In this document: one piece after another, positions 16,108-37,810 of the stretch
How positions within the stretch are numbered: position 1 is the stretch's first letter
Layout: every line of letters starts with the position of its first letter
Assembly (NCBI RefSeq): GCF_019656055.1
Contig: NZ_BPKY01000001.1
Location: forward strand, 186,001-250,000
Source: Leuconostoc miyukkimchii
GTDB lineage: Bacteria > Bacillota > Bacilli > Lactobacillales > Lactobacillaceae
Direction: 5' to 3'
DNA length: 64,000 nucleotides
Translations under genes and position numbers: made by a program
Notes under the pieces: generated by a model
Told to the model about the DNA's origin: nothing
What the model saw: only the letters and a program-made list of their open reading frames with translations
Databases searched by the model: none

Positions 16108-16189
16108 TTATTAAAATAATTTTTTCAAAGCTGGCTTTTAATTCATCTTAAATATGTAATATGTTATACTTGGAAAAGTCAAATTAATT

Positions 16190-17320
16190 ATGAATAAAAG
16201 TATTAGGGTGGTGTTTATGCTGGGAATAATTATTAATATAATAACTCTTTCAGCGATGTGTATTGGACTATGTTTTTCTTTGTTACCAATTTTGCGTTTT
16301 CATCAAAAAAGTAACATAGCAGAAAGCTATCTCATTGTGATTGTGATTTTTTTACCACTCTTATATAGTTTTCTTTCTGTTTCTAATATTGTTTTGGGAA
16401 ACATTTATTTATATTATATGCTGGCAATACTTGTTTACACATACATCGATTCACGAGTAGGGAACATTTATTTTTTGTTGAGTAGCCTCGTGATAGTGGG
16501 TTATTTATCCATTTTACAGCAGCAGTTTTCTCTTTCATTTGCTATGTTGGTTATAGCCAATGGCGTATTGACATGGTTGTTAACAATGTTGATAAATTTA
16601 TTAAAAATTAATCAATCAATCAAGGTAGTGCTCTGTGTTATATTTATGCTGATATTTGAAACGTTGTTTTGTGGATATGTATCACAAAATGGTGCACATG
16701 ATTTTAACGGTAACGTTGTGTCAGTCATTTCTGCAATTTTAGTGTTAACAGCTGTTCATTACTTTAATAAGTATTTAACGCAGAGGCAAATGGATATTGA
16801 TGAGTTAATTCGTCAAGCAAATAATGACGAATTAACAGGATTTTTTAATCTACATCATTTACAACAAAATTTTAGTTCTAAAATATTCAAAGAAGAAACA
16901 TTGGCCATAATCATGGTGGACTTAGATTATTTTAAATCAATAAACGATAAGTATGGACATACAGTTGGAAATAATGTTTTAGTGTTTTTCTCTGAAAAAT
17001 TGAACTATTTTTTGGAAGGAAAAATAGGAATTGAAAATTTTGAGTTGTATCGTTATGGTGGGGAAGAATTTGTTGTTACAATCAAAAAAACAGTACTAGT
17101 GGATAATTTAGTAGATCTTTTTGAAGAATTACAAGAGTTTATTGCAAAATTAGAAATTGAAAATTCGGATGAAAAATTAAGTTTTTCTGCTGGGATTGCT
17201 TATTTGGAAAATCATGCATATGATGCTTTAAGAACATTTGAATCGGCCGATCATTTATTATATTTAGCAAAAGAAACAGGAAAAAAGCAAACGCGTTTTG
17301 AAAGTAGAGAAGGATACTAG
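16190..17320 (+). CDS. Membrane-bound diguanylate cyclase (GGDEF)
   Basis: 376 residues. The first 190 or so are hydrophobic with about six membrane segments; the rest is a GGDEF domain (from DELTGFFNLHHLQQNF). It makes c-di-GMP from two GTP. The active site is intact: metal Asp in MVDLDYFKSINDKYGH and the signature RYGGEEF (about residues 287-293). No RxxD inhibitory site precedes the signature, so product feedback may be absent. The start is uncertain: ATG 16190 has only weak upstream complementarity, while ATG 16217 has AGGGTGG at good spacing. An EAL gene follows after a 386-bp gap. Confidence 0.85.
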   Translation: MNKSIRVVFMLGIIINIITLSAMCIGLCFSLLPILRFHQKSNIAESYLIVIVIFLPLLYSFLSVSNIVLGNIYLYYMLAILVYTYIDSRVGNIYFLLSSLVIVGYLSILQQQFSLSFAMLVIANGVLTWLLTMLINLLKINQSIKVVLCVIFMLIFETLFCGYVSQNGAHDFNGNVVSVISAILVLTAVHYFNKYLTQRQMDIDELIRQANNDELTGFFNLHHLQQNFSSKIFKEETLAIIMVDLDYFKSINDKYGHTVGNNVLVFFSEKLNYFLEGKIGIENFELYRYGGEEFVVTIKKTVLVDNLVDLFEELQEFIAKLEIENSDEKLSFSAGIAYLENHAYDALRTFESADHLLYLAKETGKKQTRFESREGY

Positions 17321-34587: not shown

Positions 34588-34618
34588 AAAAGTTGACTAC
34601 TCAGTAGTCAACTTTTTT
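34586..34618. terminator. Bidirectional terminator between argF and the MFS gene
   Basis: AAAAAAGTTGACTACT / AGTAGTCAACTTTTTT with a one-base loop offset is a near-perfect palindrome spanning the end of the MFS gene. It can terminate both converging transcripts. Confidence 0.88.
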
Positions 34619-35949
34619 GGTCTGTGGTTTAATATCACAAATATGATGAGAGAAATAAAAATAGCAAAAGCGATGCCACCAATACCATGTTGTGAGCCAG
34701 TAATTATGCCGTTATTTGGATTTTTATTCATAGCTGTGGTGATAACTTGGGCAACAATAGCAGTAGATGTTGCGCCAATAAATTGTTGCGCAGTATTTAA
34801 AATACCATTGCCATCTGTCGTTTCACCAACCGGAAGCGCTGCTAACGTTATAGTCATGAAGTTAGCATATGAAAAGCCAATACCCACCATAAGTAACATA
34901 TGAGTTAACATGAGTGTCCAAAAATTTAGTGACTGAAAGTAAAAAAACATCACACTAAGCGCAAGAGTCGATACAATCAGTCCAAATAAAATAGGTCGAT
35001 ATTGCCCAAATTTATCCAGTAAAGAACCTGATAAAGGTGCTAGAGAAGCACTAATAAGGGCACCTGGGAACATAAATGCGCCTGCTGCAGCTGCGCTAAC
35101 ATTCAAGTGTAATTGTAAATAATTAGGTAGAATAAAGGATAGACCTAATAGCGTAGCCTGGTAAGCTAAAAAACCATACATATACAAATCAAACCGCGCG
35201 TTTTTAAAAAGACTCAAACGTAATAATTTTTGCTTTTTGTTCATGAAATAAAAAATAACAAGTGATAGAGTACCAATACTTGCCATACTGAATGAAACTT
35301 TTTCAATGGCTAATAAAAGAAGGCCTAAGCCAATTGCTAAAAAGACAAATGTACTCGCGGGGAACTTTTCTGTTCGACGGACTTGCTCAGTTGGTATACT
35401 GACAAGCCCCATGATTAGGGAAACAAGAATTAAAATAATTAAGAACCAAAATATTGCTCGCCAGCCCATGGTATTTAGTAAAACGCCGCCATAAGTGGGT
35501 CCGATGGCTGGCGCAAGAGATGTAATCATACTACCAATTCCCATCATCATACCACGACGATTTATTGGTGATTTGGTGAGTATAATGTGAAACATCAAAG
35601 GTAACGCAATACCAGTACCAACACCTTGTAAGACTCTACCGGCCAGTAGCAATGGTAATGTAGGAGACACACAATCCAAAAGAATACCAAGTAGAAAAAC
35701 GCTATTTGACAGGATGAATAGTGTTCGTGTTGAAAAATTTCGAATTAAAAATGCTGATATTGGTACGATGATGGCAATTGCTAAAAGATAGCCTGTAGTT
35801 ACCCATTGTACACCGTTTGTATCTGTATTAAATTCAGTCATTAGTTTAGGAAATGTGACATTCATTGATGTTTCTATCAAAACACCACTAAAACTTAAAA
35901 TACCAGTTGCAATGACAGCAGGAATAACTTTCCAATTATTTTTTTGCAT
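34597..35949 (-). CDS. MFS drug efflux transporter, DHA2 (EmrB/QacA) family
   Basis: 450 residues, very hydrophobic, probably 12-14 membrane segments. Typical drug:H+ antiporter features are WVTTGYLLAIAIIVPISAFL near residue 50, LLAGRVLQGVGTGIALPL (motif with conserved Arg, about residue 100) and GSMITSLAPAIGPTYGGVLL (antiporter motif C, about residue 138). It would export cationic or amphiphilic compounds; the substrate is unknown. AAGGAG precedes the ATG. The gene starts directly behind a strong terminator hairpin, so its expression seems to require antitermination. Confidence 0.88.
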   Translation of the reverse strand: MQKNNWKVIPAVIATGILSFSGVLIETSMNVTFPKLMTEFNTDTNGVQWVTTGYLLAIAIIVPISAFLIRNFSTRTLFILSNSVFLLGILLDCVSPTLPLLLAGRVLQGVGTGIALPLMFHIILTKSPINRRGMMMGIGSMITSLAPAIGPTYGGVLLNTMGWRAIFWFLIILILVSLIMGLVSIPTEQVRRTEKFPASTFVFLAIGLGLLLLAIEKVSFSMASIGTLSLVIFYFMNKKQKLLRLSLFKNARFDLYMYGFLAYQATLLGLSFILPNYLQLHLNVSAAAAGAFMFPGALISASLAPLSGSLLDKFGQYRPILFGLIVSTLALSVMFFYFQSLNFWTLMLTHMLLMVGIGFSYANFMTITLAALPVGETTDGNGILNTAQQFIGATSTAIVAQVITTAMNKNPNNGIITGSQHGIGGIAFAIFISLIIFVILNHRPKKLTTE

Positions 35950-35960
35950 GATTTCTCCTT

Positions 35961-36016
35961 AAAAAATAAAAAGAGGTGTGACATTATCAAAAAATGATAA
36001 TGTCACGCCTCTTTTT
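35961..36016 (-). terminator. Intrinsic terminator/attenuator immediately upstream of the MFS gene
   Basis: A 22-bp stem with a single G-U pair (35968-35989 with 35995-36016) and a 5-nt loop is followed on the minus strand by TTTTTATTTTTT. This T tract abuts the AAGGAG Shine-Dalgarno of the MFS gene, leaving no room for a promoter between. Any transcript reaching the MFS gene must pass this terminator. Confidence 0.85.
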
Positions 36017-36056
36017 TCGGCACATATAAATCTGTGCTATCTGTACGAAACAACAT
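36003..36056 (-). CDS. Candidate 17-residue leader peptide of the MFS gene
   Basis: ATG at 36056 opens 17 codons, MLFRTDSTDLYVPKKEA, ending in TGA at 36005-36003. The last three codons and the stop lie within the 5' arm of the terminator stem (36016-35995). A ribosome on these codons would keep the stem open. There is no Shine-Dalgarno; the ATG is 6 nt after the -10, so the mRNA would be leaderless. Short ORFs occur by chance, so expression is unproven, but promoter, start and terminator spacing are all coherent. Confidence 0.5.
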   Translation of the reverse strand: MLFRTDSTDLYVPKKEA

Positions 36057-36062
36057 AGACTA

Positions 36063-36091
36063 ATTTAACAGAAATCGGCCTTGTTTGTCAA
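36063..36091 (-). promoter_or_regulatory. Consensus promoter for the MFS leader transcript
   Basis: On the minus strand TTGACA (36091-36086), a 17-nt spacer and TTAAAT (36068-36063) form a near-consensus sigma-A promoter. It sits between the rqcH stop and the attenuator hairpin. The leader ORF ATG follows 6 nt after the -10. Confidence 0.7.
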
Positions 36092-36115: not shown

Positions 36116-37810
36116 TTATTTGATTTTTAGTTGAGAGACAAGACTTGCTTCTGGTGTCACAAACAGTGTTTGGTGCCCTTCAAAAATAACAAATCCCGGT
36201 TTTGAACCATTTGGTTTACGTAGTTTTCCTGCTGGTAGGTAATCAACAGGAACATTTGCAGAATTACGTGCCTTACTGTAGTAGGCAGCAAGCTTTGCTG
36301 CTTCGATTAATGTTACATCGGATGGATTAGGTGAATGAATAATAACATGAGAACCAGGAATTTTTTGGACGTGTAACCAGATGTCTCGTCGATCAGCTTG
36401 TTTAAGTGATAACCGTTCATTTTGTAAGTTGTTTTTACCAACTTCAATTAAGGTGCCATCTGAACTTTTAAATTTATCCGGTTTGGAAACTTTAGGTTTT
36501 TGTTTGTTTTTCTTATTTGCTCGAATATATCCGCCATTCGTGAGTTCTAAACGAATATCTTCAACATCTTTAGGCGATGCCACTTCGAGTTGTGCAACAA
36601 TATTATTAAAATATTCAATTTCGGCATCAGTTAATGTCATTTGTTCGTTAACATAGGCGATAGCTGTCCGCAACTTGCGATATTTTGTGAAATATCGTTC
36701 GGCATTTTTTAAGCCATCACGTTTAGGATCTAGTGGGATATTAAGTAAATTATTGTCGTCATAATAGTTTTCAATTGCAACTGATGTCATGCCCTTTTTA
36801 ACAAGGTGGGGATATGTAATTAGTAAATCACCCTTAACTTTGAGGTCATCTGCATTTTCCGCATCATCTAATGTGGCTAGTAATTTTTTTCGTTTTGAAT
36901 TATTTTTTTTGAGTTCATTTTTAACAACACGAATCAATGAACCAGCCTGTTGATTAACACGCTCACGTTCTGCTTTTCCGATGTAATAGGCGTCTAACAT
37001 ATCACCTAATGTTTGGAAATTCTCACTTGTTACGGAATCTTGCAACCAATTAAAGGCCGAATAGCTCAAAGCACCATTATTAGAAGTAAACAGGGTGGGT
37101 TCTAAGTCATTAAAACGTGCTAACCAGTTGTTTGCATGTGCTAAATGATCGCCATCCTGATTAATTGTGCGGGCCAATACTGTCGCTGAATCACGACCAA
37201 AACCTTGGTAGGTTGACTGAATAAAAGTGGCCCAATCATCAAACGGCGTGTCTAAAATCATAGGTGCTAAACCATCTAGTCCAGCTGTGAATGGATTGGT
37301 AAGGTTCTGAGCAGGCGGGAGAATATATGTTGCGCCGGGCATTAATGAACGCACACGATTTTGATCTGCTGGTACATGTTTGATAAGCTCTAAAATACGT
37401 GAGTCGTTTTCACGTACTAAAAATAAATTGGAATGGCGACCCATCATTTCAAGTGTTAAACGGATTTCTTGAATATCACCTAATTCATTGCGCGCATTGA
37501 CATAAAAATTAATAATACGATCATTTTCAACTTGTTCAATTTTTTGAAGTTTTGCGCCTTCTAAATAACGGCGTAAGAACATCACGAAATTAGGTGCAGT
37601 CTGTGGGTTTTCGTAAGGAATATGTGTAATTTGTGCACGGGCATAAGTCGGGTGAGCACTTAGAAGCAGGGGATAGTTTACACTGTTATTTCGAACGACT
37701 AATACAATTTCGTTAGGATACGGTTGGTGGACTTTGGTAATTCTACCACCAACAATTAATTCATTAAATTCATGCACCAAAGCATGCGTAAATAGGCCAT
37801 CTAAGGGCAT
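36116..37810 (-). CDS. rqcH: NFACT-family RqcH (FbpA-like) ribosome quality-control factor
   Basis: 564 residues. N-terminal NFACT-N/FbpA domain from MPLDGLFTHALVHEFN, a helix-hairpin-helix/coiled-coil middle (KKNNSKRKKLLATLDDAENAD) and a C-terminal NFACT-R domain (DIWLHVQKIPGSHVIIHSP, AAYYSKARNSANVPVDY). Bacillus RqcH binds stalled 50S subunits and adds alanine tails; older annotation calls it fibronectin-binding. GAGG precedes the ATG. Its transcript probably ends at the hairpin at 35961-36016, which would also cap the MFS leader. Confidence 0.9.
   Translation of the reverse strand: MPLDGLFTHALVHEFNELIVGGRITKVHQPYPNEIVLVVRNNSVNYPLLLSAHPTYARAQITHIPYENPQTAPNFVMFLRRYLEGAKLQKIEQVENDRIINFYVNARNELGDIQEIRLTLEMMGRHSNLFLVRENDSRILELIKHVPADQNRVRSLMPGATYILPPAQNLTNPFTAGLDGLAPMILDTPFDDWATFIQSTYQGFGRDSATVLARTINQDGDHLAHANNWLARFNDLEPTLFTSNNGALSYSAFNWLQDSVTSENFQTLGDMLDAYYIGKAERERVNQQAGSLIRVVKNELKKNNSKRKKLLATLDDAENADDLKVKGDLLITYPHLVKKGMTSVAIENYYDDNNLLNIPLDPKRDGLKNAERYFTKYRKLRTAIAYVNEQMTLTDAEIEYFNNIVAQLEVASPKDVEDIRLELTNGGYIRANKKNKQKPKVSKPDKFKSSDGTLIEVGKNNLQNERLSLKQADRRDIWLHVQKIPGSHVIIHSPNPSDVTLIEAAKLAAYYSKARNSANVPVDYLPAGKLRKPNGSKPGFVIFEGHQTLFVTPEASLVSQLKIK

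Follow-up and report, generated by a model that had tools for sequence, protein, structure and literature searches.

In the window, i.e. the whole 64,000-nt stretch of Leuconostoc miyukkimchii DNA that was analyzed, a leader of about 100 nt lies between a promoter-like site and an MFS efflux-type gene, and the question raised by this locus is how such a leader might control the gene behind it. A first-pass annotation had described a ribosome-mediated attenuator composed of a promoter, a 17-codon open reading frame (ORF), a terminator stem, and a T tract at the Shine-Dalgarno sequence. All of these parts were found on the minus strand; the T tract runs straight into AAGGAG, and the TGA of MLFRTDSTDLYVPKKEA falls inside the 5' arm of the terminator, as had been claimed. 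Transcription attenuation of the efflux gene withstood comparison with related genomes, whereas ribosome-mediated control by a leader peptide did not. The features of the locus, with the basis of their assignment, are as follows.

36116-37810, minus strand: upstream gene (rqcH according to the first-pass annotation)
36062-36091, minus strand: predicted leader promoter, TTGACA-17 nt-TTAAAT (or 18 nt, TAAATT); consensus scan and recurrence in relatives
36045-36055, minus strand: 5' strand of the probable helix P2, UGUUGUUUCGU, pairing with GCGUGACA at 36001-36008; moderate support
36038-36044, minus strand: 5' side of the putative internal loop, ACAGAUA; invariant in alignments A3 and A4, the members of which were partly chosen by it
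36020-36037, minus strand: P1 hairpin GCACAGAUUUAUAUGUGC, variable in sequence and length with pairing kept; covariation
36009-36019, minus strand: 3' side of the putative internal loop, CGA-AAAAA-GAG; alignments
36006-36012, minus strand: AGAGGCG, conserved core element and outer 5' arm of the terminator; occurrence in all 16 MFS leaders retrieved with a 13-mer alone
36003-36056, minus strand: ORF MLFRTDSTDLYVPKKEA of the first-pass annotation, 17 codons, judged non-functional as a leader peptide; sequences of relatives
36001-36008, minus strand: 3' strand of the probable helix P2, GCGUGACA, exclusive with the terminator; fold probabilities and duplex energies
35968-36016, minus strand: predicted intrinsic terminator hairpin, 21 pairs, one C.A mismatch, 5-nt loop; fold
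35961-35972, minus strand: terminator T tract; sequence
35955-35960, minus strand: Shine-Dalgarno sequence AAGGAG of the MFS gene, directly after the T tract; sequence
34597-35949, minus strand: DHA2-like MFS efflux-type gene, 450 aa, the regulated gene; profile scores

Promoter, leader, and short open reading frame

In the predicted promoter, TTGACA occupies 36091-36086 on the minus strand and is followed by TTAAAT 17 nt on or, alternatively, by TAAATT 18 nt on. Because the consensus scan yielded 15 promoter-like sites against 13.3 ± 3.8 in shuffled sequences, i.e. no enrichment, the promoter was assigned on its recurrence in relatives. The best-scoring promoter match of the scan, taken with no shuffled control, has a spacer of 17 or 18 nt in 94 of 100 distinct leaders, and its -10 element ends 10-16 nt ahead of the conserved core described below in 82 of the 100 (likewise with no shuffled control); with this placement, the core is probably located right at the 5' terminus of the RNA. 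A second, weaker promoter-like site (9 of 12) at 35990-35963, within the hairpin and the T tract, would place the RNA start at about the Shine-Dalgarno sequence. Folding of the leader, a check that had been proposed in the first-pass annotation, gave -38.8 kcal/mol compared with -18.1 ± 3.0 kcal/mol for 200 shuffles (z -6.9).

Attenuation by a ribosome translating MLFRTDSTDLYVPKKEA would draw on the presence of this ORF and on its end within the terminator 5' arm, and the best point in its favor is genome G009, in which a full 17-codon ORF, MLFRTDSTILFVPKKEA, has 14 of 17 residues in common (three differ) and ends alike. G017 also keeps ATG-MLFRTDS, but within a 23-codon ORF that enters another frame after an indel. 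Against these cases, conservation of the peptide in related Leuconostoc was not borne out, since the ATG or the frame is gone in seven of nine same-genus relatives that possess the gene, while the core and the hairpin are kept; the first-pass annotation had itself named this outcome as one that would refute its reading. AAG stands in place of ATG in G004, G005, G006, and G008, and CTG in G002, the frame stopping at the tenth codon in all five; G015 has an ATG in another frame that encodes MISYR, and G003 has no corresponding ORF. Among the 100 distinct leaders, ATG-MLFRTDS occurs in three and some ATG ORF of at least five codons in 25, none of the 100 having a Shine-Dalgarno match of at least 4 nt ahead of such an ORF; TTG or GTG ORFs with a match of this length occur in four of the 100. 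Two features of the window that are absent from the first-pass annotation are that MLFRTDSTDLYVPKKEA has no Shine-Dalgarno sequence ahead of it and that the A of its ATG, the sixth base downstream of TAAATT, lies close to where transcription would be expected to begin. Furthermore, the stretch covered by the ORF shows the pairing and covariation of an RNA hairpin (P1). A leader-peptide attenuator of the ermK type was thus rejected for want of a conserved, translatable short ORF, and it is extremely improbable that ribosome-mediated attenuation by this peptide operates here; the earlier reading of the leader is corrected in this respect.

Conserved core, hairpin P1, and a probable alternative helix P2

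The leader maintains a conserved order of UCGUACAGAUA, a hairpin P1 that varies in sequence with its pairing kept, and CGA-N3-5-AGAGGCG, the last part of which, AGAGGCG, is the terminator 5' arm. In eight distinct Leuconostoc sequences, TTTCGTACAGATAGC, GCCGA, and AAAAGAGGCGTGACATTATC are identical, G003 lying outside this set and differing outside the core. The 100 distinct leaders were pooled by a pattern requiring GTACAGATA, CGA, and A[AG]AGGCG together with a T run, and conservation of these letters in the pool is therefore by construction. Four real members (L286, L303, L305, and L306) do not fit the pooling pattern and are absent from the set of 100; they include genuine core variants, namely ACAGAGG and ACAGAAG in L303 and L305 and UGA in place of CGA in L306, and these three should be useful for defining the essential core bases. 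The exact 13-mer TTTCGTACAGATA was found in 22 genomes, 16 of the matches being located ahead of the MFS gene and six being chance, and AGAGGCG was present in all 16 MFS leaders retrieved by this 13-mer alone. The C of AGAGGCG is paired in the predicted terminator of 58 of the 100 leaders and unpaired in 42, yet the letter is kept, which suggests a second constraint on the 5' arm. The predicted terminators of the 100 leaders have a median energy of -20.7 kcal/mol, the weakest being -11.8 kcal/mol.

Pairs 1-6 of P1 are canonical in 96-100% of 90 distinct hairpins (86 for pair 6), compared with 47-89% in shuffles and 1-51% when slid by one; pair 7 is canonical in 80% of the distinct hairpin segments. 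In 20 divergent representatives with less than 72% identity (19 for pair 6), pairs 1-6 are 95-100% canonical, a degree of pairing matched by 0-3 of 1000 shuffles, which ignore relatedness. Changes on both sides occur at all seven P1 pairs in alignment A4, and neither the number of paired cells nor the covariation score is reached by any of 500 shuffles. On the other hand, the number of pairs changed on both sides does not exceed the shuffled level, being reached by 176 of 500 shuffles in A3 and 61 of 500 in A4. The P1 hairpin segment ranges from 13 to 40 nt, and its loop varies widely. As in RNAs of the riboswitch kind, sequence and structure in this 5' UTR are conserved, the structure being kept by compensatory change, although not every measure of covariation exceeds that of shuffles.

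A second helix, P2, probably pairs the 5' end of the leader with the terminator 5' arm, as judged from fold probabilities, duplex energies, and partial covariation. When the 100 leaders were folded without the terminator 3' arm, the state that RNA polymerase would expose first, the pairs C3-G, G4-C, and U5.G each averaged a probability of about 0.5, and the two pairs that follow averaged 0.46 and 0.41; once the 3' arm was included, none of these P2 pairs exceeded 0.08. Beyond CGU/GCG, the P2 sequences differ by lineage yet often still pair, as in UGUUUCGU/GCGUGACA with one U.U in Leuconostoc, UAUUUCGU/GCGAAAUA in Weissella, and UAUUCGU/GCGAAUA in both copies of the Lactobacillaceae genome G331. 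In Enterococcus, AAAUCGU/GCGGUUU was assigned by reading, and the folding program prefers another register for L097. Over 80 distinct pairs, native P2 duplexes average -4.86 kcal/mol and duplexes with swapped partners -4.07 ± 0.16 kcal/mol, and the own partner beats three quarters of all partners in 45 of the 80 leaders. The effect is weaker in 20 thinned representatives, where the covariation of pair 5 is reached by 1 of 1000 shuffles and that of pair 6 by 85 of 1000, pairs 4 and 7-9 are not significant, and 48 of 1000 swaps give a duplex energy at least as good. Short rival pairings of the 5' bases also exist. One joins UCG to the CGA adjoining P1; it could form in 98.6% of cells but hardly varies, and for this reason remains an alternative to P2. 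Another, C3-G9, has a probability of 0.2-0.3.

Distribution and associated genes

A set of 19 genomes of the genus, including that of the window, was searched with the MFS protein. Nine of them, own genome included, encode it at 61% identity or more and a tenth (G003) at 43%; the leader core was present in all ten genomes having the gene at 43% or more and in none of the nine others, whose best match was at most 38%. For wider searches, covariance models of the core alone were used, R1 being built from 15 sequences and R2 from 25. With a limit of E 0.01, R1 matched 32 of 397 Lactobacillaceae genomes, and in 29 of these the match reached 4.2e-5 or better; one of its three weaker matches was read and found to be chance. 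R2 produced matches in 77 of 395 genomes of the order, including 67 at E 7e-5 or better, and reading of all 67 strong matches revealed the core, the hairpin, the T run, and the MFS gene in each. Ten genomes had only R2 matches worse than E 1e-4, four of which were read as chance. Second, weak matches (E 0.003-0.01) occurred in G557, G621, and G668, and at most one match at E 7e-5 or better was obtained per genome searched with the models, except for G331 (two). These counts are lower bounds because the searches used strict filters that lose weak matches and because one leader with a very long P1 (L262 in G487, 40-nt hairpin segment) was missed by the model and found by reading.

Matches were obtained in 22 of 299 genomes of the class; six of these genomes belong to the same order, all at E 1.8e-9 or better, and the 16 other matches (E 7e-4 to 8e-3) were read as chance, so that candidate members outside Lactobacillales were rejected. 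A pattern scan of GTDB returned 89 stretches, of which 76 passed the terminator criterion (strict set). One of the remaining 13 (L156) is cut by the locus end, and the other 12 failed the criterion and were taken as chance, three of them (L216, L217, and L222) on this criterion alone. With names available for 80 of the 89 stretches, the carriers comprise at least Leuconostoc, Weissella, Periweissella, Enterococcus, Vagococcus, Tetragenococcus, Lactococcus taiwanensis, and metagenome-assembled genomes (MAGs) of the order. Spread by phages was also considered and rejected, as three pattern matches in viral contigs have no visible terminator.

Ninety-eight of the 100 distinct leaders precede the same MFS gene. 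The two exceptions, L228 (core at 2567, minus strand) and L229 (core at 1517, minus strand), both lie in G331, where the downstream genes encode an LPQTG-bearing protein with collagen-binding and Cna_B domains (an adhesin) and a 568-aa family-2 glycosyltransferase. In the other 25 genomes of the genus of G331, no real copy was detected by the model, a weak match in G390 lying inside a coding frame. The MFS protein of the window scores above the cut-off of Pfam MFS_1 and obtains 213.7 bits with TIGR00711 (cut-off 230.2) and 182.5 bits with the LmrB model (cut-off 800); its best solved relative is EmrB. Fifty-one of 198 genomes of the order contain the MFS protein at E 1e-90 or better, 37 with the RNA ahead of the gene (including G487, found by reading) and 14 without it. 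Among the nine of these 14 RNA-less relatives of the pump whose neighbors were read, seven (L264-L267 and L269-L271; 41-45% identity) adjoin a MarR-family gene on the same strand or in divergent orientation.

Two pump orthologs among the other five of the 14, L237 and L239 (family f4, perhaps Streptococcus-like), have a different leader, which is alike in the two, extends no more than about 150 nt ahead of the MFS start (position 1501), and has no Rfam match. It contains a hairpin ahead of the gene, which is clear and has a T run in L239 and is weaker in L237, and is possibly a second, unrelated attenuator.

Proposed mechanism, rival explanations, and known regulators

Comparison of the leaders demonstrates that conservation lies at the RNA level, that P1 is paired, that the core overlaps the terminator, that the element is associated with the efflux gene, and that no peptide is conserved; the element is very probably a structured, widely conserved transcription attenuator. 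A possible mechanism can be proposed as follows. Transcription is predicted to start a few bases ahead of the core. By default, the terminator 5' arm (AGAGGCG...) would pair with the 3' arm, and transcription would stop short of the efflux gene. When P1 and P2 form, the conserved ACAGAUA would come to lie opposite CGA-N3-5-AGAG in an internal loop resembling a binding site; a signal, most likely a small molecule, could be held in this loop between the two helices. Such a signal may stabilize P2, pairing the leader 5' end with GCG..., so that the terminator would be blocked and the efflux gene transcribed. Since the terminator would be unable to form with P1 and P2 in place, the switch would act in the ON direction. 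AGAGGCG lies within the terminator 5' arm, and P2 competes with the terminator, its covariation being modest. On balance, direct ligand binding by a transcriptional ON riboswitch appears to be the favored, though far from certain, reading, both the binding and the ON direction being inferred. The broader proposal, for which we consider the arguments evenly poised, is that the leaders form a riboswitch class new to the Lactobacillales, some 50 nt of RNA at the very start of the mRNA that would bind a toxic compound or signal directly and turn on its exporter by antitermination, and that would have been recruited in one genome to surface-adhesin and polysaccharide-type genes.

An RNA-binding antitermination protein, and not a small molecule, might instead be what recognizes the same structured attenuator. 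A protein site would be compatible with the conserved single-stranded elements on either side of the hairpin, and the overlap of core and terminator fits antitermination; however, the immediate upstream genes differ even within the genus, so that no single gene among the neighbors is an evident protein partner. ANTAR proteins read a hairpin loop, and the wide variation of the P1 loop and length (13-40 nt) makes a loop-reading protein of this style unlikely. Reading of the attenuator by a protein is therefore regarded as a rather unlikely alternative to a small molecule. It is considerably less plausible that the hairpin merely ends the upstream gene, with the MFS gene being transcribed by read-through or from another promoter. 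In the window, the upstream gene indeed ends about 100 nt ahead of the hairpin on the same strand, and the weak promoter-like site within the hairpin could serve the MFS gene, but the element stays with the efflux gene where the upstream gene is different or on the opposite strand (L009, L012, L013, and L014, all by reading, and L061-L063). In addition, the promoter-like site recurs just ahead of the core, and the T tract touches the Shine-Dalgarno sequence. A plain upstream terminator was rejected on the persistence of the element with changed upstream genes and is very unlikely. A DNA operator for a TetR/MarR-type repressor would account for the near-perfect inverted repeat GTGACATTATCA..TGATAATGTCAC of Leuconostoc, the inner stem of which is nearly identical in eight sequences of this genus. 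This inner stem, however, is not the same in G003, Enterococcus, Vagococcus, and Weissella, all of which retain the RNA core, and P1 varies in length with its pairing kept. The operator was rejected on the former ground, and its probability is judged to be slighter still.

The element was also compared with known RNAs. In the E-value mode of Rfam 15, the element of the window had 29 matches, all of them far short of the gathering scores; ranked by E-value, the first was to an insect RNA that matches the inverted repeat on the other strand. In the gathering mode, 38 loci (23 of which hold the element) gave only a group II intron and two tRNAs, all away from the element, and a T-box was rejected because no Rfam T-box match occurs at the element. 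No published description of the element was found among the matches listed, as judged from titles and the beginnings of abstracts, and earlier RNA surveys may contain it. The available parts of PMC6429828 and PMC8632094 contain none of the terms sought for the element, and that of PMC7724050 remarks on many 5' UTRs longer than 60 nt in E. faecalis.

Several systems resemble the element in part. In the exporter-gene riboswitches ykkC and yjdF, a conserved 5' UTR RNA likewise belongs to exporter-type genes with rare members before other genes; in the available part of PMC7266159, the guanidine/ykkC and the azaaromatic yjdF riboswitches are assigned to exporter genes, and yjdF is described as an ON switch. 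The antibiotic-induced attenuators share with the element a regulated transcription terminator before a resistance-type gene. As far as the available part of PMC5418344 extends, the ermK, vmlR, bmrCD, and lmo0919 attenuators respond to ribosome-targeting drugs, ermK acting via a leader ORF and bmrCD via translation of bmrB, with no dedicated leader peptide found for vmlR and bmrCD. In contrast to these attenuators, the element has no conserved peptide, and the RNA itself is conserved. The fluoride riboswitch is also an exporter-gene riboswitch, and the element differs in bases and in fold from the ykkC, yjdF, and fluoride riboswitches, whose folds are known, and has no Rfam 15 match. The msiK motif occurs in other bacteria and has another sequence; the gene that it precedes is also other than the MFS gene. 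Its likeness to the element is formal only and lies in a hairpin whose bulge is conserved, located in the 5' UTR of a transport gene, as far as the motif is described in the available part of PMC2864571. MFS efflux genes beside MarR-family regulators encode pumps of the same superfamily, the sensor presumably being a DNA-binding protein there and RNA here.

If the proposal of a new class is true, the leader would add to the regulatory RNAs a class so far undescribed, already represented by 100 distinct examples and located before an exporter in enterococci and food lactic acid bacteria, and the RNA would do for this pump what MarR proteins may do for related pumps. Its compact, testable core would offer a handle on the ligand of the RNA and on the natural substrate of the pump. 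Cyclic di-GMP was considered as a general ligand because of the copies before the adhesin and glycosyltransferase genes of G331. A GGDEF domain over the cut-off is absent in nine of 20 carrier genomes, including G331, and present in all four non-carrier genomes searched; given the nine carriers without it, c-di-GMP cannot be the general ligand. As a separate observation, one of the two GGDEF-domain proteins of the genome is encoded within the window at 16160-17320 on the plus strand (G000:C1:202817-203290).
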